Shown here: positions 28,231-52,032 of the stretch, piece by piece
Layout: every line of letters starts with the position of its first letter
Numbering within the stretch: the stretch's first letter is position 1
From: a virus
IMG/VR virus record: IMGVR_UViG_3300033233_000010
Location: 1-64,000 of that record
Length of the DNA stretch: 64,000 nucleotides
Strand: one strand, 5' to 3'
Notes under the pieces: generated by a model
Told to the model about the DNA's origin: nothing
Seen by the model: the letters and a program-made list of their open reading frames with translations, nothing else
Databases searched by the model: none
Program-made: the position numbers and the translations under genes

Positions 28231-29166
28231 TCAGTCGAGAGCGGAGGGCTGAGACCCTACTGCTTCGTTCGCTGATTCCACGAGAATCGTGGTCTGCGGG
28301 TTGACCTGAACGCCGGGGAACGGCGTTGGCGTGCAAGGACACCGCGACGTGAACGGCGAGCAGCCGGCGTTGCAGCGATCGCAGCGCGTTCCGAGACCCA
28401 GGAGATAGCGCCCGGCCCGAGCAAGACGCGGCGTGTCATCGCCAAAGCAACCGATAGCCAGATTGCATCGCTTGCACAGCAGCCCTCGAACGCGCATCGT
28501 CTGGTGATCGTGGTCTACTCCCAACCGCTGCCCCGTTGGACACGTATCTCGACATACGGCGCACAGGCCGCCCTGCCGGTTAAGGATACCGTCGTAGTCA
28601 GCCGGCGTAAGACCGTAGTGGAACCACAATCGTCTTGCGTGCGGGTCGCGCCCACAGCCTCTCGTGTTGAGCTTCGGAACCGCCACGAGACCCGTATCTG
28701 CGGTCTCGGCGTAAGAGACGAGAATGCCTATCCGGTCCACGTCGTCATCAAGTAGCCCGAGCGCCTTGTTGCACACGCGACACAGGAGACCACGTATGAG
28801 CAACGTCTGGTGGTCGTGATCGACGCATAGGGCTGACGCCCCCCGACAGATAGCACACGCTCCATCGTGGGCCGCAACGAGAGCTCCGAACACCGCCTCC
28901 GTCAATCCGTATTGCCGCTTTAGCTGTCCGCGGCGCTTAGTCCTGCGAACCTTGTCGGGATTGGCGCTTTCCCACCGCCGCTTACGCAAACGTCGCTGCT
29001 CGGGTTTGGCGCGGGCGTAACGAGCCGCGCTGCAAGACGAGCACAGGCCGTCGGCAGACCACTTCCTTCGGTCTGGGTGGCAGATCGCCGACAAGAACGG
29101 CGGCGCGTTGCACGAAGCGCGGTGTCGGCGGAGGCAATCGCAAGTCCTGACCTTCGGAGCCGGCAT
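28231..29166 (-). CDS. Endonuclease VII-like (HNH) nuclease with two catalytic modules
   Basis: 311 residues. N-terminal cysteine-rich region (CDCLRRHRASC ... CSSCSAARYAR), then two endonuclease VII-type modules: YGLTEAVFGAL ... CAIC ... VDHDHQT ... RGLLCRVCN, and YGLTPADYDGIL ... CAVC ... VDHDHQT ... RGLLCKRCN. T4 endonuclease VII resolves DNA junctions; stand-alone phage copies are often mobile. The C-terminal ~50 residues (CDRCNAGCSPF ... CPCTPTPFPG) fall outside the nuclease fold and resemble the end of the upstream product 29171-29454. Confidence 0.87.
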   Translation of the reverse strand: MPAPKVRTCDCLRRHRASCNAPPFLSAICHPDRRKWSADGLCSSCSAARYARAKPEQRRLRKRRWESANPDKVRRTKRRGQLKRQYGLTEAVFGALVAAHDGACAICRGASALCVDHDHQTLLIRGLLCRVCNKALGLLDDDVDRIGILVSYAETADTGLVAVPKLNTRGCGRDPHARRLWFHYGLTPADYDGILNRQGGLCAVCRDTCPTGQRLGVDHDHQTMRVRGLLCKRCNLAIGCFGDDTPRLARAGRYLLGLGTRCDRCNAGCSPFTSRCPCTPTPFPGVQVNPQTTILVESANEAVGSQPSALD

Positions 29167-29170
29167 TGGC

Positions 29171-29454
29171 TCAACTCAGCAAAACCGTCGGCCCAGGCTT
29201 CGGTGTGTCGCACGGGCAGGCGAGTGCGAGCGGATTAACGCCGTGGCCGCAGACCGGGCACACCCACCCGCGCATGGGAGGAGTCGGCGGAAACAGTGGC
29301 GTGAGCGGCGGCAGGACGGGCGTGGGAGTGATAGTGATGACGACCGGGGTGACCACGACCGGTGGTCGCATCGGGCAGTTGAGCGCGTGTTCGCCGGCTG
29401 TGCTGGGCGAACAAGAACAGCTGGTGAGCATCGGCATGAGTCCTGTGTCCATCC
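29171..29454 (-). CDS. Proline-rich protein with C-terminal zinc ribbon
   Basis: 93 residues. Ser/Cys start (MLTSCSCSPSTAGEHALNC), a Pro/Thr/Val stretch (RPPVVVTPVVITITPTP) and a terminal CPVCGHGVNPLALACPC. The zinc end resembles the non-catalytic tail of the nuclease that starts 5 bases downstream. Function unknown. Confidence 0.6.
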
Positions 29455-29507
29455 TACTTCTCCGCGAGTAAGGTGTCGCTGCCGAGCCTAAGTCGCGACC
29501 AGTCCAG

Positions 29508-30182
29508 CTACTTTGTATAATCCTCGTGGTGCCCATACGGTTGGCCGTCGCGGTCGGCGAAGACGGTCTTGCCCGTCTCGCGGTTCGTGAGCTTCTGCGT
29601 ACCGCGCATCGGGGCACCGAGACCGACTCCGACCTGGGGGGCGCCTTGCACCTCCAGCGCCTTCGGGACGGGGAGGTCGCCGCGGATCTTGCGGACACGG
29701 CCACAGCCGTTCACGTCCTGGCAGTCGGGGGTCGGGCCCTGGATGCCAGGCACGCCGCCGCACGTCGCGCACTGCATCGCGTCCTGGGGGTCGATCTGTT
29801 GGCCGCCGGGAGCCGCCATCATCGGCTGCGTCGGCGCCGCGTACATCGGCTGCGGAGCCGGCACGAACCCGCCTTCGACTTCCTTGCGCCACCGGACGGA
29901 GATGACGATCTCGGCGTCCTCGGGGATCTCCTGGTTCCGGGCTCGGGCCATTTCGAGCAGTTGGCTCGCGCCGATGATGCGCGTTCCGGGGGCATGAAGG
30001 TCGCCGACGCGGGCGTCTTCGGAGGCCGGGGCCGACACGCAGACGGTCACATCGCGCGGATCGACCGTCGTCTCGGGGCTCTCCGACTCGATCATCTCCG
30101 CGAGGTCGCGCTTGTCGAGCTGGAGCGCGCACTCCTCGACGGTTACGACCTTCTTCTGAGACAGCTTCTTCATGTCGGCCAC
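29508..30182 (-). CDS. Unknown 224-residue protein with zinc motif
   Basis: GTG start; a GGGGTAGACC element lies about 20 bases upstream. N-terminal half mixed alpha/beta (VTVEECALQLDKRDLAEMI; DAEIVISVRWRKEVE), then Pro/Met-rich linker (APQPMYAAPTQPMM) and CATCGG ... DCQDVNGCGRV. A C-terminal tail ends HHEDYTK. Possibly virion-associated; no family recognised. Confidence 0.75.
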   Translation of the reverse strand: MADMKKLSQKKVVTVEECALQLDKRDLAEMIESESPETTVDPRDVTVCVSAPASEDARVGDLHAPGTRIIGASQLLEMARARNQEIPEDAEIVISVRWRKEVEGGFVPAPQPMYAAPTQPMMAAPGGQQIDPQDAMQCATCGGVPGIQGPTPDCQDVNGCGRVRKIRGDLPVPKALEVQGAPQVGVGLGAPMRGTQKLTNRETGKTVFADRDGQPYGHHEDYTK

Positions 30183-30228
30183 TGTACTCTCCTCGCCCGC
30201 GGTCTACCCCGGGGCCGTGTCACGGCGA

Positions 30229-30411
30229 TCAGCGTCCGAGGATCGCTCGCGGTAGTTGGGGGACGGGACGTTGCGTCCCGCCGGTCTGGCTTGCGGGGTT
30301 CGCCGTTCCCATACCCCACGGGAAGGCGTTGGCGTCGTCCTTCTCCACACCATCCTTCTCCACGCCGTTGCGCTGGAGGGACTTGAGAGGTCGTCTCTTG
30401 AGCGGTTTCAC
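30229..30411 (-). CDS. Small basic protein with KRRPLKSL motif
   Basis: 60 residues; GTG overlaps the upstream stop. Starts MKPLKRRPLKSLQRNG, one of the recurrent RRPLxSL motifs, followed by a duplicated GVEKD and a low-complexity tail. The position of the motif at the very N terminus is notable. Confidence 0.6.
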   Translation of the reverse strand: MKPLKRRPLKSLQRNGVEKDGVEKDDANAFPWGMGTANPASQTGGTQRPVPQLPRAILGR

Positions 30412-30683
30412 GCGACCCCCGCGAGCGCCTTCTTGCGCGTCCAGAGCCGATCGGCGTAGGTGGCGATGACGCGGCGCTCGTGGCGCGGAAGGTCGTGGTT
30501 GATCTTGCCCGTCGCCACGAAGTAGAGCGCCTGGGCCGTCGTCTTGCCGTCGCCGAGCACCAGACCGAGTTTGGCTTCGGGGCCGTGCTCGGCGAGCTTG
30601 CGGAGGTGCTTCTCGGTACTCTCGCGAAGTCCGTCCTCTCCGAACAGGACGCGGGCGAAGGCGACGAGATCATCGGCGGTCAT
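30408..30683 (-). CDS. Unknown 91-residue protein
   Basis: Helical: MTADDLVAFARVLFGEDGLR, HLRKLAEHGPEAKLGLVLGD, PRHERRVIATYADRLW. A GGGTAGGAT element lies 18 bases upstream. Function unknown. Confidence 0.7.
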   Translation of the reverse strand: MTADDLVAFARVLFGEDGLRESTEKHLRKLAEHGPEAKLGLVLGDGKTTAQALYFVATGKINHDLPRHERRVIATYADRLWTRKKALAGVA

Positions 30684-30737
30684 GGGTCACTCCGACAGCT
30701 TATCCTACCCGACCGCGAAAGACCCGGCGACGGTTTC

Positions 30738-31133
30738 TCAGAGCCCGAACCGCTTCTTGATCGTCTGAGCGGCGCGGTCGCGAGCCTGCACGGCGTTCGA
30801 GTTGATCGCGACCGGCGGAGGCTTGTCGTAGAGCGCGGCCAGCCGATCGACGATCGAGGTCCCAGCGCCGTGGGCCACACGCTCGGCGAGATCGGCGAGC
30901 GGCGCGTAGACGGCCTCGCCCGTACAGACCAGGCCGACGAGGGTCGAGACGAGCCACGCCAGGAAGTCGTGGTCGTCGAGCACCTTCGAGAGATCCAGAA
31001 CACCCTCGCTGGGGTTCCACAGCTCGGATAGCTTATCCACACAGTCTGAGTCGAGCCCAGCCGCCACCGCGGCGGGTCTGAGTACCCCGTGTTGGAACCA
31101 CCGCGCCGTCTCGGCGTCGAGCTGAAAGCGCAT
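30738..31133 (-). CDS. Unknown 131-residue helical protein with IVDRLAAL motif
   Basis: MRFQLDAETARWFQHGVLRP then helices (DDHDFLAWLVSTLVGLV) and TSIVDRLAALYDKP, the recurrent peptide. Divergent from the plus gene at 31156 with only 22 bases between, so the two promoters overlap. Confidence 0.72.
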   Translation of the reverse strand: MRFQLDAETARWFQHGVLRPAAVAAGLDSDCVDKLSELWNPSEGVLDLSKVLDDHDFLAWLVSTLVGLVCTGEAVYAPLADLAERVAHGAGTSIVDRLAALYDKPPPVAINSNAVQARDRAAQTIKKRFGL

Positions 31134-31155
31134 ACCCGAGAGGATAGTCCAAGCC

Positions 31156-31527
31156 ATGTCGAAGCCCAAGCCCGCGGCGCCACGAGCCGAGTTTTTCGTC
31201 GGCGACGTGCCGCCGCCCATCGTAAAGCAGGTCAAGAAGGCGATCGAGGAGCCCGCCGCGACCGACGACTCGATCGACCTCCCGCGCAACAAGCAGCTCG
31301 TCGTTGCACACGATGTCCCGATGGAGGACGACCCGGGCGCGCTTCTCCGGCAGCTCACCGCCGGGATGCCCCCCGGCGCGATGCGCCCCGATGAGATCGC
31401 GGACGAGGCCAACCGCGCAAGGCACAACGCGCACATCGACCTCCTCCGTATGACCGACGCGGAGCAACGCCGGCAGCGTCGGGCGAAGCTGGCCGAGGAG
31501 CGGGGTAAGCAGAAGCGCAAGAGGTAG
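31156..31527 (+). CDS. Unknown 123-residue protein
   Basis: Starts MSKPKPAAPRAEFFVGDVPPP; the C-terminal half is a long basic helix (ANRARHNAHIDLLRMTDAEQ ... KLAEERGKQKRKR) that may be a coiled coil. Function unknown. Confidence 0.72.
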   Translation: MSKPKPAAPRAEFFVGDVPPPIVKQVKKAIEEPAATDDSIDLPRNKQLVVAHDVPMEDDPGALLRQLTAGMPPGAMRPDEIADEANRARHNAHIDLLRMTDAEQRRQRRAKLAEERGKQKRKR

Positions 31528-31530
31528 TCG

Positions 31531-31743
31531 ATGTTCATCGCGCTCGATCCGGGATCGTTCGCGCTCGGCATCATCGCCGGGTGCGCGTGCTTCATCGCTG
31601 GTTACGGCGCGGCTGGCATTTACTACCGCCGTCGTCCTCCGGCGCTCGATCATCGGTTCATGGAGCACTTCAACAAGCACACGTTCTACTCGGGCGAGGC
31701 GGGACCGACCGAACCGCCGACCACGGAGCACACAGATGAGTGA
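31531..31743 (+). CDS. Small membrane protein (70 aa)
   Basis: One hydrophobic segment near the N terminus (GSFALGIIAGCACFIAGYGAA) followed by YYRRR and a hydrophilic tail. Function unknown. Confidence 0.7.
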   Translation: MFIALDPGSFALGIIAGCACFIAGYGAAGIYYRRRPPALDHRFMEHFNKHTFYSGEAGPTEPPTTEHTDE

Positions 31744-31906
31744 GACGGAAACGAAGGTCCAGCTGTGGAGCACAGTCATCATCGCCAACACAGGTCAAGT
31801 CGTCTCGGGGTGGGATTGGCTCGGCACTATTCACGTCTGCGACGGCCTAATCGTCTACCCCGGCACGACACGGCCCGTCGGAAAGGTCAAACCGCGTGAT
31901 CGCTAA
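31736..31906 (+). CDS. Unknown 56-residue protein
   Basis: ATG overlaps the end of the previous gene by 8 bases. MSETETKVQLWSTVIIANTG, a beta-rich middle (WDWLGTIHVCDGLIVYPG) and a basic end. The coupled start supports it; no family recognised. Confidence 0.6.
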   Translation: MSETETKVQLWSTVIIANTGQVVSGWDWLGTIHVCDGLIVYPGTTRPVGKVKPRDR

Positions 31907-32204
31907 GGTGTGGCGTGGGCTTCACTTTCACAGGTACAAGGACAACCCGATGGAGAAGGCGTTCGCCGCCGCGTTCGAGCAGCTCAACAAGACCGGGCCC
32001 GGCCTACCGCGCGAACCGTTCGTCGACACGCTGCTCAACGAAACCAGCCGGCCAACTCCGTGCTCACGCCGCGACCAGCAGGTCGCCTGCACGCTCGCCC
32101 AGTGGCTCGGTTCGCCTGTCGGCATCGAGTGGGTGATGCGTGTGCTCGCCAAGAACAAGAACAAGATCGGAAGACCGATCCCGGAGGAGTTGACGAGTGG
32201 CTGA
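31896..32204 (+). CDS. Unknown 102-residue protein
   Basis: GTG 11 bases inside the previous gene. Helical middle (MEKAFAAAFEQLNKTGPGLP) and basic tail. Function unknown. Confidence 0.65.
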   Translation: MIAKVWRGLHFHRYKDNPMEKAFAAAFEQLNKTGPGLPREPFVDTLLNETSRPTPCSRRDQQVACTLAQWLGSPVGIEWVMRVLAKNKNKIGRPIPEELTSG

Positions 32205-32514
32205 GACGACGAACGACGACAAGACGGAGGAGGAGAAATTCGCCGCGCTCCAGTGGTTCGACCTCGGACGCGGGGCGGGCAAGGACGAGTTCCTGCGCTG
32301 CCGCCTCCTCCAGCCCGGCTCGACCGGACCGTGGGTCATCGCCACGGTCTGCGAGCGTCGTAACTACTCGACCAAGGCAAAGACGGAGGCGACCAACGAG
32401 ACGGTTGTCGTCGACGCCATCACGCGGTCCATGGTCATCGTCCCGAACGACCCGCGGATGTCGCCTCCGGTCCACCGCCGCGATGCGCGTGTGCTCACCG
32501 AAGGCAAGCCGTGA
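32197..32514 (+). CDS. Unknown 105-residue protein
   Basis: GTG 8 bases inside the previous gene. Acidic N terminus (TTNDDKTEEEKFAALQWFDL), beta-rich middle (GPWVIATVCERRN). Function unknown. Confidence 0.7.
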   Translation: MAETTNDDKTEEEKFAALQWFDLGRGAGKDEFLRCRLLQPGSTGPWVIATVCERRNYSTKAKTEATNETVVVDAITRSMVIVPNDPRMSPPVHRRDARVLTEGKP

Positions 32515-33051
32515 GCGAGCAGGTCAACATCCACGGCAACATCACGTTCTCCGACAACTACGGCAAGCAGTACGAAGTGGTCGCTGAGATCAAAAAGCTC
32601 CGCGCTTCGGTCGAGCTTCTCCTCAAGCTGTCCACTGTCCGACTCGGTTCGGTGAACGTCGATGCGCTGGATGCGCTCAAACTCCACTGGTTCCAGAGCG
32701 TCTTCGGTAACTTCGGCGTCGGATGGAGCGCGTCGCGCGTCATCCTCGGCGCAGCCCGGCTACGACATAGAGCACTTGGAGTCCGGGGTCAAGACGGGGC
32801 TCCCGAACGACCTCACGACACCCGACAACCGGTGGAACTTCGTCAACACGCTCAAGCTCATCATCGCGTCCAAGGTGTTCGAGCCGGCCCCCTTGTCGGT
32901 CGAGAGCCTGATCCGCGCCGTCATCAGTAACACAGCCACGCTCGATCCCATCTCACAGGTAGGCGCGTTGGCAGCTATCTGCCCGGAGATCAAGCCGGAC
33001 GGCGTGCGCCCGGCGGAGTCCCTTGCTCTGGCGTCCCAACTAGCTTCATGA
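32511..33051 (+). pseudogene. Unknown gene apparently split by a +1 frame change
   Basis: GTG at 32511 opens a normal-looking protein (MSEQVNIHGNITFSDNY ... WFQSVFGNFGVGWSASRV) up to about 32750. Beyond this, the protein-like sequence continues in the +1 frame (QPGYDIEHLESGVKTGLP ... SLALASQLAS, stop 33051), while the first frame becomes Arg-rich junk. The second frame has no good start of its own except ATGs at 32662 and 32671 that would encode junk first. One base change near 32745-32757 would restore a ~180-residue protein. Function unknown. Confidence 0.55.
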
Positions 33052-33835: not shown

Positions 33836-33865
33836 GGGTTCGAGTTTAACGTTTGTCGGCTTTTC

Positions 33866-33875
33866 GGGGTAGAAC
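33866..33875 (+). promoter_or_regulatory. GGGGTAGAAC element before 33897
   Basis: Plus-strand GGGGTAGAAC preceded by an AT-richer patch, 21 bases before the GTG at 33897; a GAGGAGAAA Shine-Dalgarno-like stretch lies between them. Confidence 0.5.
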
Positions 33876-33896
33876 GGAGCGCTTAGAGGAGAAACC

Positions 33897-35135: not shown

Positions 35136-35137
35136 TC

Positions 35138-35147
35138 GGGGTAGAAC
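35138..35147 (+). promoter_or_regulatory. GGGGTAGAAC element before 35154
   Basis: Plus-strand GGGGTAGAAC ends exactly 6 bases before the GTG at 35154, the same spacing as at 4058, 9429 and 11887. Confidence 0.55.
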
Positions 35148-35153: not shown

Positions 35154-36008
35154 GTGACGGACGCGAAACGACCGCTGCCCTATCTCATCGCGCGCATCGC
35201 CCACGACGGCAGGCCGTGGCCGGATGACGGCACCTTCGATAAGATCGCGGCGTCCAAGGGGGCCATCCTCGGCGATGACGGTTGGTTCACGCGCGGTCGA
35301 CGCCGAGGCCGGTGGTATCTCGACGTGTCGCTGGCGAACTACGCGCCGATCATCGTGGCGCGCGAAAGGCTCAACGACATCCGCGCGCTCGAAGACCTGC
35401 GTTACCGCGCACAAGTCCACGTCGAGAGGGTACTGGAGCCGCTCTATCAGAAGTCCATCGCTCGGCTCCGGGCAGCTGACGACCCGCGGATCGTCCGCGG
35501 CGACAGGATCATGCGGATCGAGTTCACCAAGGACCACGTCTACTCGTCGGAGAGCTTTCCTACCGAGCGGGAGATCAAGGCCCCGGAGAACGCCGGAATC
35601 GTCGACAGGATCAGCGCAATCCCCACCCCGGACCACGAAGACTTCAAGGCCGGAGAGAACTGGCTGTTTCATCAGCGCGGAATCCACGCGGGTCTGTTCC
35701 GCGTGGGTCGCGCGGAGGCGGCGCTTCGCAAGGCGCTCGACCTCTACCGCCTCAAGCACCACCCGAAGGAGATGAGACTCCACTCGGACAGGCGTCCGAC
35801 CTTCGTCTTCATCATCAACGGGCGCTACTACCCGATCGGGCGCGAGGAGTACCAGAAGAACATCGTCATCTGGCCGCAGCTGTCCGACATCGTGGTCAAC
35901 TTAGACAAGGAGAACACGCGTGGCGAAGATCAAAGTAGTGGACGAGCTTCCGCCCGAGGTAGTGGCGATGCTCGCAGCTCTGTACTCGCGAAGCCCGAAG
36001 AGCGTTGA
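35154..36008 (+). CDS. Unknown 284-residue protein
   Basis: GTG at leaderless spacing from its promoter-like element. Mixed alpha/beta protein: WFTRGRRRGRWYLDVSLANY, GDRIMRIEFTKDHVYSSESF, NAGIVDRISAIPTP (a form of the recurrent peptide), HQRGIHAGLFRVGRAEAAL, RRPTFVFIINGRYYPIG. The last ~30 residues overlap the thyX fragment in another frame and look low-complexity. No family recognised. Confidence 0.75.
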   Translation: MTDAKRPLPYLIARIAHDGRPWPDDGTFDKIAASKGAILGDDGWFTRGRRRGRWYLDVSLANYAPIIVARERLNDIRALEDLRYRAQVHVERVLEPLYQKSIARLRAADDPRIVRGDRIMRIEFTKDHVYSSESFPTEREIKAPENAGIVDRISAIPTPDHEDFKAGENWLFHQRGIHAGLFRVGRAEAALRKALDLYRLKHHPKEMRLHSDRRPTFVFIINGRYYPIGREEYQKNIVIWPQLSDIVVNLDKENTRGEDQSSGRASARGSGDARSSVLAKPEER

Positions 36009-36075
36009 CGAGCATCTGGAGCAGGTTCTCAAGCGTGGCCCCGACAAGTTCATGGACGACTACTACGTCGGCTAG
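35920..36075 (+). pseudogene. thyX 5' remnant (51 codons)
   Basis: GTG with AAGGAG upstream encodes MAKIKVVDELPPEVVAMLAA ... DDYYVG and then TAG. It aligns along its whole length with the first ~53 residues of the complete ThyX at 36915 (shared VAMLAAxYSRxPxSV, RGxxKF, YVG) at roughly 50% identity. The match stops at the GGCTA of the conserved YVGYGHKS motif. I read it as the original gene start, cut off when the endonuclease unit inserted. It keeps a ribosome-binding site and could still make a 51-residue peptide. Confidence 0.85.
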
Positions 36076-36112: not shown

Positions 36113-36955
36113 GTGGCCCATCGGATCTTGCCGCAAGAACACGTCCGTCGCGTCATCGAGATACACGGCACGCGTCTTCGTGTCGTAGACCACTACGTCG
36201 ATGCCCACACGAAGATCCGCTACGAGTGCCCGAGGCACGGACGGTTCTGGGCAGCGCCGAAGAACGTAGTCACCAGGCGCTCGGGTTGCCGTCGGTGCTA
36301 CGAAGCGACGGTTGGTCCACGGTGCCGAAAGACCCACGCGGTCTACACCGCGGAGGCGCGTGCCGTCGGGATTCGAGTAATCGACCGCTACGTCACCGCT
36401 CTGACGCCGATCCGACATCGATGCGCTAAGGGTCACACCTGGAGCACGTCACCGAACCAGTTGCTCTCGGGCTATGGATGTCCGCTCTGCGACCGATCTC
36501 AATTCAGGCGCCGCCCAGTTCGAGTCGGGAACCGGGAAGTGATGCTCCAAGGTTCCGAGGGAGTAGCTGTTGCACTCATGCTTGCCGCCGGTGTCGATCC
36601 TGACGACCTGGCGTTCACAACCGCAGAGGGCCGCCCGACGTTCCGATACAGATTCGACGGTCGGGTTCGCGTCTACGTGCCCGATGCCTTTCAGCTTTCG
36701 GTGCGTCAGGTCATCGAGGTAAAAAGCGCGGTAACGCTCGGGCTCTACGACTCGACACTGTTTGCGCAAGTGAAAGCCAAGGCCCGAGCCGTCGTAGCTG
36801 CCGGACTCTCGTATCGGCTGATGGTCATCCACCGGAAGCAAAACATCGACATCGGTTCGAGCTGGTTTCGGTGGTCGTGGCGAACACTTAACACGCGATT
36901 CAGGAGGAAGACCCATGCCCAAGATCGTCGTTCTCGACGGAAACGACGTTCCTAG
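36113..36955 (+). CDS. PD-(D/E)XK homing-type endonuclease with zinc-finger repeats
   Basis: 280 residues. Two treble-clef zinc repeats (YECPRHGRFWAAP ... GCRRC, and HRCAKGHTWSTSP ... GCPLC; DUF723-like modules of homing nucleases) are followed by a nuclease core: SEGVAVALMLAAGVDPDDLA, then VYVPDAFQL and VIEVKS, giving the E...PD...ExK set. The basic C terminus overlaps the thyX start by 41 bases. It lies exactly between the thyX 5' remnant and the complete thyX, so thyX is its likely target. Confidence 0.85.
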   Translation: MAHRILPQEHVRRVIEIHGTRLRVVDHYVDAHTKIRYECPRHGRFWAAPKNVVTRRSGCRRCYEATVGPRCRKTHAVYTAEARAVGIRVIDRYVTALTPIRHRCAKGHTWSTSPNQLLSGYGCPLCDRSQFRRRPVRVGNREVMLQGSEGVAVALMLAAGVDPDDLAFTTAEGRPTFRYRFDGRVRVYVPDAFQLSVRQVIEVKSAVTLGLYDSTLFAQVKAKARAVVAAGLSYRLMVIHRKQNIDIGSSWFRWSWRTLNTRFRRKTHAQDRRSRRKRRS

Positions 36956-38246
36956 CCCGGAAGACGTGGCGATGCTCGCAGCCATGTACTCACGAGATCC
37001 GCGATCGGTGCTCGACCATCTCGTCCAAGTGAAGCAACGCGGCTCGGCGAAGTTCCACGAGCAGTTTTATGTGGGCTACGGTCACAAGAGCATCGGCGAC
37101 TGCGGCTCGACGACGGTCTTCTTCGAGGGTGTCTCGATGTTGGCGGCGAAGGCCGTGCAGGACACCCCGCTGTACAACGGCCAGGAAGCCTCGACACGCT
37201 ACATCGACTTCTCCACACAGCTGATTCTCAACCCGCTCGCAACGCCGGGTGGGAAGGCTGTGCAGGACGCCTGGATGGCGCTCTACGCAGACACCATCGC
37301 GGCGCTCAAACCGCTTCTCGCCGAGCGCTACCCCCGGCAACCAGACCAGAAAGAGTCGGTGTGGACGAAGGCGATCGCCGCCAAAGCGTTCGACATCGGG
37401 CGGTCCCTGATACCAGCCGGCGGAACCACCAACGTCGCGTGGCACGTCAACCTGCGCCAAGCGTACGACCACAGCCGGGAGATGCGGAATCACCCGCTCC
37501 CCGAGATCGCCGGCCTTGGCGTGGGCGGAATCGAATGCCTGAAGGAGAAGTACCCGTCGAGCTTCTCCCACGAGGCGAAGCTCAAGGACGACAAGGCGCG
37601 CGAGAATTACAAGGCGGAGGAGCACTACATCGCGAAGAGCATGACGCGCTTCGCTTACTTCGCCGACACCGACGCCGTAGACGGGTTCTACGCCGACTTC
37701 GGCAAGCTCGACCTCCGCGCGATGGAGCCGCTCGGCGACCTCCTCGCCTCGCGACCGCCGCGGACCGAGCTGCACCAGCGCTTCCGCCAGTACGGGGTGA
37801 TCACGTTCAAGTTTCTCCTCGACTTCGGCAGTTACCGCGACCTCCAGCGGCAGCGGAGCGCTGTGCAGGAGATGCCGCTCCTCTCAATGCGCCACGGCTT
37901 CCACCCGTGGTACATCGAGCAGATGCCGCTCGGAACCGAAGCGCAGATCGCAGCGATCGGCAAGCTGGTCGAGCGGCTCCCAGCCGACGACTTCACCCGC
38001 CAGTACTACGTGCCCATGGGCTTCCGCTGCCCGGTCGTGATGACGTGTCCGCTCCCCTCGGCGGTCTACATCGCCGAGTTGCGAAGCGGGAACACCGTCC
38101 ATCCCACCCTCCGCGTGATCGCGCAGAAGATGGGCGAAGTGCTCAAGAAGACGATCCCCGAGCTGGCGATGCACCACGATATGTCGCCCGACTCGTGGAA
38201 CGTGAGGCGCGGAACGCAGGACATCGTAAAGAAAGCATCGGCGTAG
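36915..38246 (+). CDS. thyX: ThyX-like flavin-dependent thymidylate synthase, extended
   Basis: 443 residues; a strong AGGAGG lies 7 bases before the ATG, inside the endonuclease gene. N-terminal half carries YVGYGHKSIGDCGSTTVFFE and GQEASTRYIDFS (the ExSxRY part of the ThyX signature). The C-terminal half carries FKFLLDFGSYRDLQRQRSA, where the usual RHR is RQR, and YIAELRSGNTVHPTLR. Typical ThyX is 220-250 residues, so this is a two-lobed form. The enzyme would methylate dUMP to dTMP using FAD and methylenetetrahydrofolate. The first ~55 residues appear to have been replaced, see the remnant upstream. Confidence 0.87.
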   Translation: MPKIVVLDGNDVPSPEDVAMLAAMYSRDPRSVLDHLVQVKQRGSAKFHEQFYVGYGHKSIGDCGSTTVFFEGVSMLAAKAVQDTPLYNGQEASTRYIDFSTQLILNPLATPGGKAVQDAWMALYADTIAALKPLLAERYPRQPDQKESVWTKAIAAKAFDIGRSLIPAGGTTNVAWHVNLRQAYDHSREMRNHPLPEIAGLGVGGIECLKEKYPSSFSHEAKLKDDKARENYKAEEHYIAKSMTRFAYFADTDAVDGFYADFGKLDLRAMEPLGDLLASRPPRTELHQRFRQYGVITFKFLLDFGSYRDLQRQRSAVQEMPLLSMRHGFHPWYIEQMPLGTEAQIAAIGKLVERLPADDFTRQYYVPMGFRCPVVMTCPLPSAVYIAELRSGNTVHPTLRVIAQKMGEVLKKTIPELAMHHDMSPDSWNVRRGTQDIVKKASA

Positions 38247-39802: not shown

Positions 39803-39904
39803 CTAGCCGCAGCCCGTCGTCGCACCACACGTCAAGCAGAACGCGCGTGTCAGACTTACGCGCCCCGTTCCACCACACGCCGGGCACTCGTGCTCTGAGC
39901 CCAC
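39803..39904 (-). other. Second copy of the nrdJ C-terminal tail (33 codons)
   Basis: Starting at a GTG 4 bases after the nrdJ stop, this frame encodes GSEHECPACGGTGRVSL ... AFCLTCGATTGCG and TAG. 17 of the last 28 residues equal the true nrdJ end, including the whole AFCLTCGATTGCG, but codons differ and one cysteine has become Arg. It is in a different frame from nrdJ. It is probably the displaced original 3' end of the gene; a free 33-residue peptide is the alternative. Confidence 0.75.
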
Positions 39905-39908: not shown

Positions 39909-42893
39909 CTAGCCGCAACCTGTGGTGGCCCCACAAGTTAGACAAAACGCGCAGGTTGCGGCTCTGATCGTGGGATTGCCGCAGACCCCACACGGCTGGT
40001 CAGCGGAGAGGGAGAGGCGCGCTCCAGGCTTCTCCGCGAGGAGCTGCCGCAGGTTCTCCCGCACCGTGTCGTTCGCGGCCAGGTCCAGCACGTTCGCCAC
40101 CGTGTTGGCGGGGGCGTGATCGCCGTTCTTCGCGGCGAGGCCCACCGGAAGCTCGTAGCGGTCGGTCTTGGGCTTGGCCTCGTCGACCGGGGCGGGCTTG
40201 TGAGCGAGGTCGTCGCGGTTGAGGTAAGTGACGGCGAGCGTACGGAAGATGTAGTCGATGACGCTGAACGATGACTTGATGCGAGCATCGCCTTGGACCG
40301 GCCCCGACGGCTCGAACTTGGTGAAGGTGAACGCCTCGACGTACTCGTCGAGGGGAACGCCGTGCTGGAGCCCGAGCGAAGTGAGGATGGCAACGGTGTC
40401 GAGAAGGCCCTGGATCGTCGACCCGGCCTTCGCCATGTCGATGAACAGCTCGCCGATCTTCCCGTCGTCGTACTCGCCGGTACGAACGTAGACCTTCTGG
40501 CCGCTGATCGTCGCCTCTTGCGTGAAGCCGCGACGGCGCTTGGGGAGCCGCTTGCGCTCGGAGAGAAGCGGCGGGGCGAGGATGGGCGCGGTCGAGCCTG
40601 GAGCCGGCGTGGGCCGGAGGTCAATGGCAATCGCCTTGGTCTTCTCCTTCTTGGAGGTGAGCACCTGGCATCCCTTGGAGCCGTCGCGGTAGACCGCGAG
40701 CGCTTTGACGCCGAGCTTCCACGACTCGATGTAGACCTGTTCGATCTCGTCGACGGTCGCGCTCTCGGGCATGTTGACCGTCTTGCTGATGGCTCCACAG
40801 AGGAAGGGTTGGGCCGCCGCCATCATCTTGACATGCGCCATAGGCGCGATGAAGCGCTGGCCGCGCTCGCCGCACTGAGTCGCGCAGTCGAAGACGGGGA
40901 GGTGCTCGCGCTTGAGCGTACCCGAGCCTTCGATCGTCTCGTGCGCCGCGATGTGGGCTTCGAGCAGCAGGCGCTCGCTGGGCGCGTAGCCCAGCCGCTC
41001 CAGTGCCGGACCAACCGACTGGTTCACGAGCTTCATCGCACCGCCACCGGCCATCGCCTTGTTCTTCACGAGCGCGAAGTCGGGCTCGATACCCGTCGTA
41101 TCGCAGTCCATGAGAAGGCCGATCGTGCCTGTCGGGGCGAGGAGAGTGAGCTGGGCGTTGCGATAGCCCCACATCTCACCCGCCGTGATCGCGCTCTCCC
41201 ACGAACCCTTGGCCGCAGCGGCGATGTGGATGTCGAAGCGGCTCGGCTTCGATTTCTTCCCCTCGGCGGCGTGCATGCGAGCGACGTTGAGCATGTGCGC
41301 CCGGTTGCGCTCGAAAGCCGAGAAGGAGCCCCTCACCGATGCGATCTCAGCCGAACGGTCCCACGCCGTTGCGGCCATGAGCGACGTGATCGACGCGCAG
41401 ATGCCACGACCCTCGTCCGAGTCGTAGGAAACGCCGAGGCGCATGAGCAGCGCGCCGAGGTTCGCGTAGCCGAGCCCGAGCGGACGTAGCTGGTGGCTAT
41501 TCTCGGCGAACGCCTTGGTGGGGTAGCTGGCGTGATCGACGAGGATGTCCATCGCGAGGATGAGCACGCGACAGACGTGCTCGAATCCTGCGATGTCGAA
41601 GGTGCCGTCGGGGAGCAGGAACTTGACGAGGTTGATCGACGACAGGTTGCACGCGCTGTCGTTGACGAAGTGGAACTCGTTACATGGGTTAGCCGCATCG
41701 ATGCGAGCGAAGTCGGGAACGGTGTTCCAGCGGTTGATCGTCGTGTCGAACATCATCCCGGGGTCGGCGCATCGGTGCGCCGCCTCGGCGATCTTCCGCA
41801 TGAGCTTCTTCGCCTTGAGCGTCTTGGCGACCTTGCCCGTGGTACGGTACTTCGTCTGCCAGTCGCCATCGTTGAGGACAGCGTGCATGAAGTCATCGGT
41901 GACGCGAACCGAGTTGTTGGCGTTCTGGCCCGAAACGGTCGCATACGCCTCGCCGTTGAAGTCGGGCGAGTAGCCGGCCTTCACGAGCACGGCGACCTTG
42001 TCCTCCTCGCGCGCCTTCCACTCGATGAATTCCTCGATGTCCGGGTGGTCGGCGTCGAGGCACACCAGCTTGGCCGCGCGGCGTGTCGTACCTCCCGACT
42101 TCACTGAGCCTGCCGCCGCGTCGTAGACCTTGAGGAACGACATGAGGCCCGATGAGGACCCGCCGCCGGACAGCTTCTCGTTCTTGGCGCGGAGCGTGGA
42201 GAAGTTGGCTCCAGCACCCGAACCGTACTTGAAGATCCGCATCTCCTCGGCGATGCCGAGGCCGATCTGCGTGAGGTCGTCCTTCACCGTACGGATGAAG
42301 CACGCGCTCACCTGGGGGCGCGAGAATCCGTCCAGCGTCTCGCTGGCGACGCCGGTCTTGAGGTCAACGGCCCAGTTGCCGGCGGGATCGCCCTTGATGC
42401 CGTAGCTCTCGTGGAGTCCGAGGTTGAACCACACCGGCGAGTTGAAGGCAACGAATTGACGGACGAGGATGTAGCGCAGCTCATCGCGCAGCGCCCTCAC
42501 GTCTTCGTCGGAGACGAGGTAGCCTTGGCTTCTTCCGGCGTTGGCGATCGCGTTGGCGATCCGGTCGATGACCTGTCGTACGCTCCTCTCGGAGCCGGTG
42601 GCAACCGGCTTTCCGCCGTTCAGGTTGGCGAGCCCGTCGACGACCGACTGCGGGACGCCGCCTTTGCGGAAGTACTTGGAGACGAGGATGTCTCCGGCGA
42701 CCTTCGACCAGGCCACCGGGATCTCCACGTCGTCCATCTGGAAGACGACCGACCCGTCGGGGTTGGCGATCTTCGCCGTGCGACGCTCGAACTTGACTTC
42801 CGCGTAAGGGTCGTGCTCGGAAGCGGTGAAGTGACGCTCAACCGAGATGTGACCGCCGACGCGCGTGGCCGGGCCAACCGCCGCGATGCTCAT
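39909..42893 (-). CDS. nrdJ: Class II (B12-dependent) ribonucleoside reductase
   Basis: 994 residues from the ATG at 42893 (GCAGAGG upstream; a GTG at 42965 would add 24). Conserved NrdJ blocks: FNSPVWFNLG, QVSACFI (cysteine of the redox pair), NPCNEFHFVNDSACNLSS (active-site Cys/Glu), PTGTIGLLMDCDTTGIEP. A TSCPD-type domain follows (GELFIDMAKAGSTIQGLLDT) and the end is a zinc-ribbon tail CGVCG ... CLTCGATTGCG. It reduces ribonucleotides to deoxyribonucleotides with adenosylcobalamin and needs no oxygen and no second subunit. The last codons (for example CTA ACT TGT GGG) are less GC-rich than the copy downstream, suggesting that the present tail is foreign. Confidence 0.95.
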   Translation of the reverse strand: MSIAAVGPATRVGGHISVERHFTASEHDPYAEVKFERRTAKIANPDGSVVFQMDDVEIPVAWSKVAGDILVSKYFRKGGVPQSVVDGLANLNGGKPVATGSERSVRQVIDRIANAIANAGRSQGYLVSDEDVRALRDELRYILVRQFVAFNSPVWFNLGLHESYGIKGDPAGNWAVDLKTGVASETLDGFSRPQVSACFIRTVKDDLTQIGLGIAEEMRIFKYGSGAGANFSTLRAKNEKLSGGGSSSGLMSFLKVYDAAAGSVKSGGTTRRAAKLVCLDADHPDIEEFIEWKAREEDKVAVLVKAGYSPDFNGEAYATVSGQNANNSVRVTDDFMHAVLNDGDWQTKYRTTGKVAKTLKAKKLMRKIAEAAHRCADPGMMFDTTINRWNTVPDFARIDAANPCNEFHFVNDSACNLSSINLVKFLLPDGTFDIAGFEHVCRVLILAMDILVDHASYPTKAFAENSHQLRPLGLGYANLGALLMRLGVSYDSDEGRGICASITSLMAATAWDRSAEIASVRGSFSAFERNRAHMLNVARMHAAEGKKSKPSRFDIHIAAAAKGSWESAITAGEMWGYRNAQLTLLAPTGTIGLLMDCDTTGIEPDFALVKNKAMAGGGAMKLVNQSVGPALERLGYAPSERLLLEAHIAAHETIEGSGTLKREHLPVFDCATQCGERGQRFIAPMAHVKMMAAAQPFLCGAISKTVNMPESATVDEIEQVYIESWKLGVKALAVYRDGSKGCQVLTSKKEKTKAIAIDLRPTPAPGSTAPILAPPLLSERKRLPKRRRGFTQEATISGQKVYVRTGEYDDGKIGELFIDMAKAGSTIQGLLDTVAILTSLGLQHGVPLDEYVEAFTFTKFEPSGPVQGDARIKSSFSVIDYIFRTLAVTYLNRDDLAHKPAPVDEAKPKTDRYELPVGLAAKNGDHAPANTVANVLDLAANDTVRENLRQLLAEKPGARLSLSADQPCGVCGNPTIRAATCAFCLTCGATTGCG

Positions 42894-45843: not shown

Positions 45844-45902
45844 GACGATCCTCCGCTGACGGGCCTCGACCTCGGTGAACGACGACTTCGCGTCGGCTTG
45901 GA

Positions 45903-47765: not shown

Positions 47766-47780
47766 CTTGGCCGGCGTCTC

Positions 47781-48962
47781 CTACTTGTGGTGGAACTTCT
47801 TGAGGGTTTGCGCCAACCTCGCGCGCTTGCCTTCCTTGCCACCCTTCTCGGCGGCGGCGGCGAGCTTCCCGGCTGGGATCTTCTTGCCCTCGGGCACGCC
47901 CATCTGCTTGTGGAGCGCGCCCTTCTTCATGTGCATCGCGGCGATCCACTTCTTCGCCTCGTCGAGCTGCATGCCGGCGGTCCGATCTTCGGCGACCTCG
48001 GCCTGGGCAGACGCGTCGCGAAGCGAAGCGGCGCCGACACGCGCCTCGCGGAGCATGCTCGCGCTCGGCTGGCTCACGCCCTCCTTGACGGTGATGTCGT
48101 CCTTGGCGAGCGGTGCGGTGCCGCCGTTGGCCGAGTTGAACTGGCCGGGCTCGACCTCGGCGGGCGAGCGGAGCTTGCCGCCGAGACCCTTGAGCGCCTT
48201 GCCGATCTTCTCGCCCTTGGGCTTGGGCACCGACTCGCCCTCGACGGCGGGCTCGGCGTCGACGGGCGGAGTCGTCGTCTCGGTCGTCGGCTTCACTCCG
48301 AGGTCGGCTGCGTTGCGGAGCCTGGCCGCGTCGTCGGCGGCGAACTGCGCGATGTCGGCGATCGTGAACGCCGGCTTGTTGCTCACGCCGGTTCCGAGTT
48401 CGAGCGCCGGGTTCGACTCGTGCTGAGTCTTGAGCGACTTTTCCAGCGCAGCGCCGTCGACCAGCATCGGTCGTTCGAGGAACGCCGTGGGGAGGCGCAT
48501 CGCGGCTCCGGCGTTCCCGGACGTGGTCATCTCGGCGACCAGCTTGTCCTTCAGGGCCGGGAGATCCTCGATCGCGATGTTGAGGATCTCACCGGCGACG
48601 AACTGCTTGATCGCCTTGGCGTCATCACCACTGACACCGTACTGGCGCATGTCGGGCACGCGTCCCATGCGCATCGCCACCTCGGCGATGCCCATGACGA
48701 TCGTCGGGTTGAGCCCACGATCCTCGGCGAACTTGTCGATCTCGGTCTTCCGCGAGTGGAGGACCAGCTCGCGCGTGTCGGGCGACATGAGCTTGGCGTC
48801 GCGGCTGAACCCGCCCACCGGCGCTTCGAGCGGCGAGTCTTCGTCCATGCGCATCGCGGCGGGAGAGTTGAGCGCAGCGCCGGGACCGCCGCTACGAACC
48901 CGATGGTTCGCCGGATCGCTCGGGTCCCACTTGTTCTTGCCGTTCTTTCCGTTGGTACTCAT
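47781..48962 (-). CDS. Virion-cluster protein, paralogue A
   Basis: 393 residues. Starts MSTNGKNGKNKWDPSDPANH and shares with the next gene GGPGA, MRLPTAF, ALELGTGVSNKPAFTIADIA, KPKGEKIGKALKGLGGKLRS, EPGQFNSANGGTA and ASLRDAS. A C-terminal lysine-rich segment is unique. The shared blocks show a duplication followed by divergence; ATGA-coupled to paralogue B. Function unknown, likely structural or scaffolding. Confidence 0.72.
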   Translation of the reverse strand: MSTNGKNGKNKWDPSDPANHRVRSGGPGAALNSPAAMRMDEDSPLEAPVGGFSRDAKLMSPDTRELVLHSRKTEIDKFAEDRGLNPTIVMGIAEVAMRMGRVPDMRQYGVSGDDAKAIKQFVAGEILNIAIEDLPALKDKLVAEMTTSGNAGAAMRLPTAFLERPMLVDGAALEKSLKTQHESNPALELGTGVSNKPAFTIADIAQFAADDAARLRNAADLGVKPTTETTTPPVDAEPAVEGESVPKPKGEKIGKALKGLGGKLRSPAEVEPGQFNSANGGTAPLAKDDITVKEGVSQPSASMLREARVGAASLRDASAQAEVAEDRTAGMQLDEAKKWIAAMHMKKGALHKQMGVPEGKKIPAGKLAAAAEKGGKEGKRARLAQTLKKFHHK

Positions 48963-50692
48963 CGTTCTCCTCGTAGTACGGCAGCGCCGACGCCCGATCC
49001 GCGAAGCACCCTAGCGCTGGGGGTGTCCAGGTCTTCCTTCACCGAGATGTCGAAAGCCGGAAGCGTGGCGGTGCCATGCGAGGCGTTGTTGAACTGCCCC
49101 GGCTCCGCTTCGGCTGGCGACCGCAGCTTGTTGCCGAGCCCCCTGAGCACCCGACCGATGCGCTCACCCTTGGGCTTCGGGATTGTGTCCTCGGAGAACA
49201 CGTCGGCGAGCGTGTGGTGCTGCTCGGTGTGCTCCTCGGGGAGTCCGGCGAGCTTGCGACCGTGCTTATGCGCGGCGGCGAACGCCGCATCTCCCTTTGC
49301 CCTGTCGGGGTGCTGGAGGACACTCTTCCAGTCGCCAGCCGCCATGTGCTTGAAGAGGTCGCCGAAGTGGGGATCGTCGTGGGCTTGCTTGGCAAGCTCC
49401 GCGGCTCCGGCTTGGGCGTGCTCGGTGGAAGTACGGTTCTTCGGATCGGACTTCTCCGCCTTCACCTTCGCCATGATCTTGTCCATCATCCCCTGGATCG
49501 GCGACTTCGGCTTGGCCGCGGCCTGCGCCGCCATCTTCGCGTGTTGAGCGGCCAACTTCGCCTCGCGCTCAGCCGCGGCCTTTTCAGCGGCCTCCTTCTT
49601 CGCCTTCTCTTGCCCTTCCTTCTTCGCCTTCTCCTCCGGGGTATCGGGCTGGTCGAGATCGAGCTTGGAGAAGCGCTTCCAGATGTGCGAGTCGACGCCG
49701 GGGGGCACGGGCTTCTCACCGGACTTCGCCGGTTCGGCTGCGGCAGATGCAGCCTTGGGCGCGGGTCCTGCCGTGGGCTCCGGCTTGGCGTCCGCGTTGT
49801 GGATCGGGTGATCAGGCGCGTGCCCCATCGAGCGAGGCACGCCGAAGACCATCTTCCAGCCTTCGGGGAGATGCCCCTTCGTCTTGAGCTGCGCGAGCGC
49901 CGTCGACTGCTCCGACGTGAGCTTCTTGGTGGGGTCGATGTGGTCCGAGTGCGGCGAGCCGGAACCGTAGTGGATGTTCAGGCTGTGACCTGGCTTCACG
50001 TCGAGGTGCCCGATGCCCTTCATCGCGATGGAGTGAAGCACGGGGCCGGGCGTGACCTTGCCCCAGTCGGCCTCGTGCTTCTCCTTGTGGCCCTTCGTCT
50101 GTTGGCTGACCCAGGCTTCGAGATCCTTGTGGACCTTGTGCTGAGGGGACTTGACCGCGTGCTTCGTGTCAGGGTTGCTGCTGCTCGGCTTGCCATGCTT
50201 GACGACGTGATGCACAGCCGCCTTCACCGGCTCCGGCAGATCCTTGAAGTTCTGGTGCTTGGTGAGGTCGTGGATCGTCGGCGTGCCCTCGAAGTTCTCC
50301 ACGACTGGGCGCAGAGCGCGACGGGCGTCCTCGTCGGCGAGCTGGGCGATGTCGGCGATGGTAAGCGCCGGCTTGTCGGACACGCCCGTCCCGAGGGAGA
50401 GCGTGGGGCGCGTGTTCTCGCGCTCGGCGATCTGTCGCTCCAGCTGACCGATGTCGATCATCGCGGGACGGCTCATGATCGCGGAGGCGAGGCGCATCGC
50501 CTGGGGACACGCTGGAGCATCGGCGCCGGAGTCCTCTTGCAACGGGCGGGGCTCCGTCTCGGGCTCCGGCGTCGGCTCCTGCTCCAGCGCCGGGAACATG
50601 GCGGAGGTGAGAGAGGCGCCAGGCCCGCCGTTACGAACCCGGTGATTGGCGGGATCGTTCGGGTCCCACTTCTTCTTGCCGTCCTTGCTCAT
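48959..50692 (-). CDS. Virion-cluster protein, paralogue B with insert
   Basis: 577 residues from the ATG at 50692. Same N- and C-terminal blocks as paralogue A (KKWDPNDPANHRVRNGG; SLGTGVSDKPALTIADIA; KPKGERIGRVLRGLGNKLRS; EPGQFNNASHG). In between is a His/Lys-rich domain absent from A (DLTKHQNFKDLPEPV; SHIWKRFSKLDLDQPDT) and a long charged helix (EKAKKEAAEKAAAEREAKLA). Possibly a scaffold or internal head protein. Confidence 0.72.
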   Translation of the reverse strand: MSKDGKKKWDPNDPANHRVRNGGPGASLTSAMFPALEQEPTPEPETEPRPLQEDSGADAPACPQAMRLASAIMSRPAMIDIGQLERQIAERENTRPTLSLGTGVSDKPALTIADIAQLADEDARRALRPVVENFEGTPTIHDLTKHQNFKDLPEPVKAAVHHVVKHGKPSSSNPDTKHAVKSPQHKVHKDLEAWVSQQTKGHKEKHEADWGKVTPGPVLHSIAMKGIGHLDVKPGHSLNIHYGSGSPHSDHIDPTKKLTSEQSTALAQLKTKGHLPEGWKMVFGVPRSMGHAPDHPIHNADAKPEPTAGPAPKAASAAAEPAKSGEKPVPPGVDSHIWKRFSKLDLDQPDTPEEKAKKEGQEKAKKEAAEKAAAEREAKLAAQHAKMAAQAAAKPKSPIQGMMDKIMAKVKAEKSDPKNRTSTEHAQAGAAELAKQAHDDPHFGDLFKHMAAGDWKSVLQHPDRAKGDAAFAAAHKHGRKLAGLPEEHTEQHHTLADVFSEDTIPKPKGERIGRVLRGLGNKLRSPAEAEPGQFNNASHGTATLPAFDISVKEDLDTPSARVLRGSGVGAAVLRGER

Positions 50693-50809
50693 CGGGGTCC
50701 CTCGGTTGCCGTCTCGGGCTCTAGACGAACTGGAATAGGGTAGCACCTAAGAGTCTACCCCTAAAGCCCGTTCGATGCCTAGCGTCCGCCGACGACCCAT
50801 CGGCCCAGT

Positions 50810-51193
50810 TCAGTTCGGTCCGGTTCCGGCAACGGCCCGAGCCATGTCCTCGCGCGTTCGCTTGCTCGGGCCGAAGTAGAACGCCTTGGCGCCGAACAGA
50901 CGAACGGCGTAGTAGTACCGCCACGCCGCGAACCTGTAGAACAGGCGCTTGAACCAGGTGCTCTGCCTACGCGCGTGTTCAGCCATCGCCTTGTGGAACC
51001 GCCGGTCGGCATCGTAGCGATCACGCTTCGTGCAGCCGAGCCAGTAGTCGAAATCGTGAGTCTCACATGGACAACCGAAAACCAGATCTGGAATTATCCA
51101 TGAGATGCCTCTAGGTCCGCACCCGTTACATACCGCCTTCCGTTCGGCTGGCGTAAGGTCTTCAAACCGTAAGGGACGAGCCGGAGTGGTCAC
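50810..51193 (-). CDS. Phospholipase A2-like phage protein
   Basis: 127 residues from a GTG that overlaps the nuclease stop (GTGA); a TTG at 51217 is less likely. Residues ~20-60 carry NGCGPRGISWIIPDLVFG, CPCETHDFDYWLGC and RYDADRRFHKAM, the CGP, C..HD..Y and AD..F pattern of secreted PLA2 enzymes, with HD as catalytic pair. A basic aromatic C-terminal half follows (FKRLFYRFAAWRYYYAV). The 5' part uses less GC-rich codons than the old 5' end still fused to the nuclease upstream, which suggests it arrived with that nuclease. Confidence 0.75.
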   Translation of the reverse strand: MTTPARPLRFEDLTPAERKAVCNGCGPRGISWIIPDLVFGCPCETHDFDYWLGCTKRDRYDADRRFHKAMAEHARRQSTWFKRLFYRFAAWRYYYAVRLFGAKAFYFGPSKRTREDMARAVAGTGPN

Positions 51194-52032
51194 TTGATTA
51201 CCCTTGCGATCTTCCAACCGTGATGAGCTATCTTACGCCCATGCACAACCTCGTAGAACCCCCATTCACCCATTCCGCGCTCGCGGCAAAAGACCTTGAG
51301 GTTGTCAGTCTCGAAGACAGTCCCGCTCGGATCGGTGATCGTGTAGCGAAACGTGCAGTGCGCCTCGCTGATCTTACGCCGATGTTCGGGCGTCTTTGGT
51401 TTTCCCGTGTGCAGGCAGCGTAGACGCTCGACTTCCTTTAGCGAAAGACGACGACCCAGGTGCGTCGCGCTAATCTTTGCCCGCGCCTCCGGCGAGTGTG
51501 TCTGGCCCCACATCGAGTTCTTCTTGCCGAGCTTGCACACCCGCATCTTCCTGATAGAGGCTGAGCGATGGCGTCTGCCGAAACCGCCGAGACCTCCCGG
51601 TGTGCAGTTGTAACCGTTCTGAATAGATGCCAGCCTGGCGATCCAGTGCCGCTCGGCGGTATCAAGTTCGGCTTGGTTAGAACACGCAGCCACCACTGAC
51701 ACTGTAAACGCGGTCCAACCATACTTGGCTATTGCGCACGCCAGCTTAGGCTGTCTTCGGCAATGACCTCTTCGGTAATTGTCCAGGCGATGCGCTAGAT
51801 CAACCGTCTGCCCGACATAGACACGACCACTCGGGCTACGAAGACAATAGACGACGCCGAAGTGGTCGCACGCAGACTCAAAGACGAAATTCGATACGCT
51901 GCTCTCGATACTCAAACACGGACACCCGAAGATCAGATCGGGGATGATCCACGAGACGCCCTTGGGACCGCAGCCGTTCGAGACAGCTGCGATCTCTTGC
52001 TTGGTCAGGACTTCCCAGGTGATCGAGGTCAC
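51190..52032 (-). CDS. GIY-YIG homing-type endonuclease fused to an old gene start
   Basis: 280 residues. Residues 1-39 (MTSITWEVLTKQEIAAV, NGCGPKGVSWIIPDLIFG, CPC) are a second copy of the start of the PLA2-like gene downstream. In the same frame follow GVVYCLRSPSGRVYVGQT (GIY-YIG motif, with catalytic Arg and Tyr), LDTAERHWIARL and NGYNCTPGG, then NUMOD3-like DNA-binding repeats (NSMWGQTHSPEARAKIS; HTGKPKTPEHRRKISEAH) and a C-terminal HTH-like module. The nuclease unit breaks the old gene between CPC and ETHD. Confidence 0.9.
   Translation of the reverse strand: MTSITWEVLTKQEIAAVSNGCGPKGVSWIIPDLIFGCPCLSIESSVSNFVFESACDHFGVVYCLRSPSGRVYVGQTVDLAHRLDNYRRGHCRRQPKLACAIAKYGWTAFTVSVVAACSNQAELDTAERHWIARLASIQNGYNCTPGGLGGFGRRHRSASIRKMRVCKLGKKNSMWGQTHSPEARAKISATHLGRRLSLKEVERLRCLHTGKPKTPEHRRKISEAHCTFRYTITDPSGTVFETDNLKVFCRERGMGEWGFYEVVHGRKIAHHGWKIARVIK

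Follow-up and report, generated by a model that had tools for sequence, protein, structure and literature searches.

Nuclease genes flanked by duplicated gene ends in phages: candidate homing elements that carry a replacement end for their target gene

Duplicated gene ends around nucleases in the window

The window is a 64,000-nucleotide stretch of an IMG/VR virus record (121,783 bp in total, GC ∼65%) for which the annotated phage collection gave no DNA-level match. At two of its loci, thyX and a gene resembling phospholipase A2 (PLA2-like), an old 5′ fragment is followed by a nuclease gene and then by a complete gene with a diverged 5′ end. The thyX locus comprises the following features.

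35920..36075, + strand: old (resident) thyX 5′ end, 51 codons, ending GGCTA/G; matches codons 1-54 of the intact gene at 30/51 positions; GC3 0.78
36113..36955, + strand: nuclease with zinc motifs (treble-clef/CapR) and a catalytic motif of PD-(D/E)XK type; Pfam DUF7487 (2.9e-10), CapR and DUF4379; PHROG endonuclease families
36915..37076, + strand: replacement thyX 5′ end (codons 1-54); GC3 0.72 versus 0.88 in the body; starts inside the nuclease gene
37077..38246, + strand: body of thyX, running from YGHKSIGD... at the break as far as the stop; Pfam Thy1 (7.5e-16)

The product of the thyX fragment, MAKIKVVDELPPEVVAMLAALYSRSPKSVDEHLEQVLKRGPDKFMDDYYVG, ends where the intact gene (36915-38246) goes on with YGHKSIGDCG. 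Both copies read GGCTA at the break; the next base is a G in the fragment, which yields a TAG stop, and a C in the gene. A single nuclease gene lies between fragment and intact gene, and its last 41 nt overlap the thyX start. The residues of its PD-(D/E)XK-type motif are PD190-191 and EVK 202-204, and its relatives are found at locus L007 (63%) and in PaBG (34%); an AlphaFold model built from three sequences (pLDDT 63, the catalytic part being modeled with low confidence) was not good enough for searching folds. The gene upstream of the fragment (35154-36008) runs ∼88 nt into it out of frame and then stops, and looks as if its own end had been altered; the nuclease of locus L120 likewise enters an old gene end out of frame.

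The PLA2-like locus lies on the opposite strand.

51916..52032, - strand: 39 codons of the old PLA2-like 5′ end, continuing in frame into the nuclease; 67% identity with the new end across 36 aa; GC3 0.79
51190..51915, - strand: GIY-YIG and NUMOD3 nuclease; Pfam GIY-YIG 2.6e-8 and NUMOD3 6.1e-12; PHROG homing endonuclease 3.2e-31
51065..51217, - strand: PLA2-like replacement 5′ end, codons 1-51 counted from TTG 51217; GC3 0.43 versus 0.82 in the body
50810..51064, - strand: PLA2-like body from the break (ETHDFDYW...); weak Pfam Phospholip_A2_3 match (0.00067, below the cut-off)

The 39 codons of old N-terminus that open the GIY-YIG/NUMOD3 gene end in GCPC, where the intact gene continues with ETHDFDYW, the His-Asp motif of that family. 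A GTG of the rebuilt gene, at 51193, overlaps the nuclease stop. A relative of the PLA2-like gene, at L051, is contiguous across the break point; single-protein scans for close relatives of ThyX and of the PLA2-like protein found none.

An earlier note on this DNA had singled out these two loci as clear cases in which the break falls at a conserved motif and the rebuilt gene is tightly coupled to the nuclease. Each point stands: the fragments align with the starts of the rebuilt genes, the breaks read YVG/YGHKSIGD and GCPC/ETHDFDYW, and at both loci the nuclease stop overlaps the rebuilt start. Its count of three nuclease folds holds only if the HNH_3 nuclease of locus L214, on another contig, is included; within the window the confirmed cases comprise a GIY-YIG nuclease and the PD-(D/E)XK-type motif protein (Pfam DUF7487).

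Two further sites had been proposed, a scar at nrdJ and a suggestive case near 29 kb.

39909..40010, - strand: nrdJ C-terminal tail in use (probable replacement end); last 39 codons GC3 0.64 versus 0.91 in the preceding stretch
39806..39904, - strand: left-over second nrdJ tail (scar), with no nuclease between the tails; 52% identical over 33 aa, the last 13 aa identical
28231..29166, - strand: HNH gene of the Endonuclease VII type, in tandem; Pfam Endonuclease_7 6.9e-35; resembles the gene at 29171-29371 at the C-terminus only

The last 33 codons of nrdJ are duplicated just past its stop, and the two tails share the 13-residue ending AFCLTCGATTGCG with many synonymous differences; a diverged duplicate with the nuclease absent is likely a scar, as suggested. 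The 29-kb association with a gene end is not established. The likeness between the HNH C-terminus and the Cys-rich tail of the preceding gene has a score reached by 0/2000 shuffles; a codon-usage shift was looked for there and none was found, and such Cys motifs recur. The small Pro/Cys-rich protein (29171-29371) ends GWVCPVCGHGVNPLALACPCDTPKPGPTV and resembles the C-terminus of the HNH protein, GTRCDRCNAGCSPFTSRCPCTPTPFPGV. The original observation is thus partly confirmed: thyX and the PLA2-like gene are solid cases, nrdJ is likely a scar, and the site near 29 kb is unproven.

Self-comparison of the whole record revealed short non-repetitive gene-end duplications at thyX, the PLA2-like gene and nrdJ only, the remaining matches being paralogous or repeat genes. 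A tandem paralogous pair of long genes (47781-50746) has three common conserved blocks, among them KDGKKKWDPNDPANHRVRNGGPGA and PKPKGERIGR..LRSPAEAEPGQF, and a long tail-type gene (53588-58761) harbors many ∼100-residue repeats (FALTGVLSPASI..NDYNP..) that are also present in the next gene.

A second thyX element and the codon usage of exchanged ends

An alignment-based scan identified 16 loci related to thyX, the closest of which, L007, has the layout of the window: a fragment, the same nuclease, and thyX from a GTG at 5001 that overlaps the nuclease by 32 nt. The two loci are 57% identical in the thyX body, 63% in the nuclease and 69% in the new end. The L007 fragment starts at ∼3878 and ends CVG, followed by GGCTA/AGCTGGTA, while the window junction is GGCTA/GGCTGGCA; since both read GGCTA/RGCTGG, the left boundary of the insert is identical in the two. 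The other thyX relatives examined (L008-L014) have an uninterrupted gene and no nuclease. Break and nuclease therefore occur together in the thyX family, contrary to one of the two outcomes that the earlier note had named as refuting its proposal, and the nuclease displays the presence or absence at one site of a free-standing homing endonuclease.

The history of the pair can be read in more than one way. An insertion of two to three residues, DG.DVP, is present in both new ends and in the L007 fragment and absent from the window fragment, which in this respect resembles L010 and L014. This difference suggests that different resident genes were invaded in the window and in L007, although the ∼36-50 residues compared are not proof, and identities to the more distant relatives sampled do not separate old from new end. 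By inference, the retention of a fragment over the divergence between window and L007 also favors separate insertions; the L007 fragment has an internal loss of about a dozen codons. Identity of the element parts (63% and 69%) is only a little above that of the body (57%). Recent transfer of the thyX element is therefore not proven, and the pair may descend from one ancestral insertion. That nuclease and new end move as a unit is suggested mainly by this pair, because the thyX element is the only one seen in two genomes.

Codon usage independently supports the delimitation of the replaced end in most cases. The GC3 of the new end is below that of the body in 8/8 cases and closer to that of the nuclease in all seven that have one. 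Old ends of the PLA2-like gene and of thyX in L007 and the window are host-like (GC3 0.78-0.83), the nucleases have values of 0.65-0.70, and the L007 thyX new end has 0.61 versus 0.86 in its body. The best changepoint of the PLA2-like gene (GC3 0.44 to 0.84) lies at codon 55, interval 51-58, for a break at 51, and that of L007 thyX (0.60 to 0.87) at codon 57, interval 46-62, for a break at 54; neither shift was reached in 500 permutations, nor was that of nrdJ (last 200 codons), whose last 39 codons fall from 0.91 to 0.64. For thyX in the window the changepoint (0.71 to 0.89) is at codon 56 and was reached in 26/500 permutations. The best changepoint of L112, codon 112, is the break itself, exactly before the duplicated DGPVI, with a wide interval of 45-120, and that of L120 lies 72 codons from the end, compared with 82 duplicated. 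Some thyX genes that have no nuclease also contain GC3 changepoints, but elsewhere (codons 91-237).

As gene ends vary, binomial p-values overstate the significance of such shifts and were discarded in favor of a comparison with control genes from other viral contigs. Equally large shifts occur in 1 of 804 control genes for PLA2, 8 for L007, 36 for thyX in the window and 11 for nrdJ; the shift is exceeded in 0/804 for L112, 16/740 for L120 and 52/804 for L086, which is marginal, and L214 has no significant GC3 shift by this comparison. Between old and new ends the protein is kept and the codons are mostly different. Adjoining the break, the DNA of the two copies differs at 10/24 nt in thyX, 6/24 in L214 and 9/24 in L112, and the rebuilt PLA2 site differs from the native one at only 4/24 nt left of the break.

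Recurrence in other viral nuclease loci

Nuclease loci from five collections were examined for nucleases that have a copy of one gene end on each side, and the layout was seen in the phage of the window as well as in at least four further viral contigs. Among 212 viral nuclease loci, four further target genes have it, next to other nucleases; absence of the pattern elsewhere, the other outcome that the earlier note had named as refuting, thus does not hold. Two are of the 5′ version. At L214, MSRLFISLIALLLAWPAQAGTRVWLMYG is followed by an HNH_3 nuclease and then by MIKIVTIIFTLLTCTPVLAGTRVWLLYG/WGDN of a hydrolase-like gene; phages searched for an empty-site relative of this gene contained none. 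At L086, a GIY-YIG nuclease adjoins a LamG tail gene in a region that holds paralogous tail genes. The other two are of the 3′ version, both with GIY-YIG nucleases: at L120, a ∼1000-aa gene with His_Phos and 2′-5′ RNA ligase domains precedes the nuclease and an 82-residue 3′ fragment, 59% identical, and at L112 the order is PhoH, nuclease, then DGPVIPRRRGISVG versus DGPVISRRRGVS. The exchanged end is the 5′ end in thyX and PLA2 of the window, and the 3′ end in L120, L112 and probably nrdJ. In these four loci, in L007 and in both window cases the nuclease lies between the hybrid gene and the displaced native end, and its domains belong to homing families (GIY-YIG/NUMOD3, HNH_3, and DUF7487 with PHROG endonuclease matches). 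Most targets are broken at a motif, as in ThyX, where the aligned relatives have an invariant Y-G-H and following S (YGHxS).

By an adjacency criterion tightened after inspection of the data, a duplicate within 60 nt on both sides is present at 5/212 viral nuclease loci, L007 included, versus 0/331 other genes of the same loci (one-sided Fisher p=0.009), and at 4/184 nuclease loci without the L007 locus family (p=0.016). A looser screen of flanks gave 9/80 nuclease loci versus 8/113 controls, with no excess until adjacency was required. The other matches of the strict screen (L082, L177/L178, L233 and L130) proved on inspection to be chance or paralogs. No clear case was present among 38 GIY-YIG loci of bacterial and archaeal genomes, and none among ten annotated phage nuclease loci. 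A family-independent search of ∼2.1 Mb detected nuclease inserts at thyX, PLA2 and L120, its other matches being repeat or paralogous genes; its filters missed L007. With ∼2% of the sampled viral nuclease loci showing the layout, a figure from a screen that degraded or very short ends escape, most homing nucleases do not behave in this way.

Two other loci deserve mention. At ∼2300-3090 of L311, a Methylobacter contig, direct DNA repeats surround a small NUMOD3-type frame; they match in several frames and on both strands, and are not a protein end. In Klebsiella phage vB_Kpn24-P3 (L414, 2040-4634), an NAD-dependent DNA ligase is split by an endonuclease gene without end duplication, which exemplifies the split-gene alternative.

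A two-part element and its known counterparts

The reading that we favor, with a probability of roughly three in four, is that a homing nuclease and a replacement end of its target gene travel together as one two-part element. It draws on the layout, the exact junctions, the mosaic of codon usage, the recurrence and the uninterrupted relatives. Cutting, transfer driven by repair (homing) and immunity are the steps that we infer. The element would lie precisely where the target gene is cut, in the manner of an intron, and splicing would not be involved: the carried end joined to the target body would make a complete gene, and the resident end would be left as a fragment. The 5′ version has the order old 5′ end, nuclease, new 5′ end and body, and the start of the rebuilt gene is overlapped by the nuclease stop; in the 3′ version, body and new 3′ end come first, then the nuclease and last the old 3′ end.

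When phages with and without the element infect the same cell, the nuclease would cleave the allele that lacks the insert, and the element-bearing genome would serve as repair template, with homology arms formed by the body and by the old end together with the DNA upstream of it. Double-strand break repair would have arms on both sides, since the resident end is next to the nuclease and the body next to the new end, and the whole element would be copied because the carried end is diverged and offers little homology. That divergence would also split or change the recognition site, so that the rebuilt gene should not be cut; the differences beside the break may protect it in this way. The prediction is that the nuclease cuts the native junction and not the rebuilt one.

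The strongest rival, which we consider unlikely, makes the layout a by-product: a free-standing nuclease moved with co-conversion of its flanks, the non-homologous side was joined by chance so that a piece of the resident gene stayed behind, and the new end is simply that of the donor's gene. Foreign codon usage suits a donor gene, flank co-conversion is well known for T4 homing nucleases (PMC2988022), and nucleases lie at exchange boundaries in a 2023 survey (PMC10448857). Such a history sits poorly with the absence of a variable donor flank, as no more than 60 nt separate the old end from the nuclease match in 5/5 screened cases, and no more than 41 nt from the gene at thyX in the window, and with a thyX junction identical in two divergent phages.

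It is less probable still that a nuclease first split the gene, as mobE did in Aeh1 nrdA, and that the orphan body later gained an end by ordinary recombination with another phage. Split genes with active products are documented (PMC2988022), and a T5-like ligase locus is split without duplication; in the examples read in detail, however, the nuclease overlaps or abuts the new end, and L007 and the window have related nucleases together with related new ends. Very improbable, finally, is a nuclease that landed between ordinary tandem paralogs or local duplicates. Paralogous tail genes (L130, L123 and several control loci) do give similar BLAST signals and L086 might belong here, but the fragments stop short at the nuclease, most differences between old and new ends are synonymous, the codon usage of the two ends is different, and no control gene matches at such adjacency.

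A recurrent class of nuclease elements that carry gene ends, as the earlier note proposed, is supported by the sequence comparisons. That note's claim of a distinct lifestyle is too strong, since mobile ORFs of fungal mitochondria already behave in this way (PMC3630166). In Allomyces atp6 (Paquin 1994, as cited in PMC3630166), Rhizopus atp9, Mortierella cox2 and Glomus atp6, atp9, cox2 and nad3, such ORFs come with a carboxy-terminal duplication. In these fungi too, an endonuclease ORF, of different families, separates the displaced native end from a hybrid gene that carries a foreign end, and the DNA of the ends is diverged and the protein conserved: for atp6, atp9, cox2 and nad3, the inserted C-terminus has 64-81% DNA identity to the native sequence of a relative, and the native end 91-98% (PMC3630166). 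The fungal cases are C-terminal and mitochondrial, whereas those in phages involve 5′ and 3′ ends and GIY-YIG, HNH_3 and PD-(D/E)XK-type nucleases.

Homing endonucleases also reside in group I introns and inteins, which are likewise inserted inside a conserved motif of an important gene. Unlike them, the phage elements need no splicing and displace the resident end rather than rejoining it. No RNA family (Rfam, e.g. group I intron) matched at any locus, and one open frame to one side of the insert holds the complete gene; insertion at a nuclease site rather than an intron is therefore the better description, consistent with the earlier statement that nothing is spliced out. Free-standing phage homing endonuclease genes (T4 Seg/Mob; nuclease 'islands') share the nuclease families, the proximity to important phage genes, the translational overlap and the flank co-conversion, and differ in that they adjoin genes or split them into two polypeptides (PMC2988022, PMC10448857). 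Reviews of T4-type phages treat free-standing nucleases, co-conversion and split genes, and no description of a carried replacement end with a displaced native end in phages was found in the open-access literature, including the accessible parts of these two sources.

If correct, the two-part element would be a third way for phage homing nucleases to reside inside essential genes, beside introns or inteins and the splitting of genes. It would also account for some of the mosaic phage enzymes and of the stray gene fragments next to nucleases. A flanking duplicate with a codon shift would be a signature for finding more cases and predicting the target of each nuclease. The evidence tips somewhat towards phages harboring a general class of natural home-and-rescue elements, which would be convergent across at least three nuclease folds and both gene ends, and in which the diverged end would restore and protect the target and provide a standing source of mosaic enzymes. 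These would be the natural counterpart of engineered home-and-rescue or cleave-and-rescue drives, in which a nuclease (PMC7968924, PMC7951863) is likewise linked to a rescue portion of its target whose changed sequence should escape cutting; the synthetic drives are engineered and CRISPR-based, and the phage elements would be their analogue in nature.
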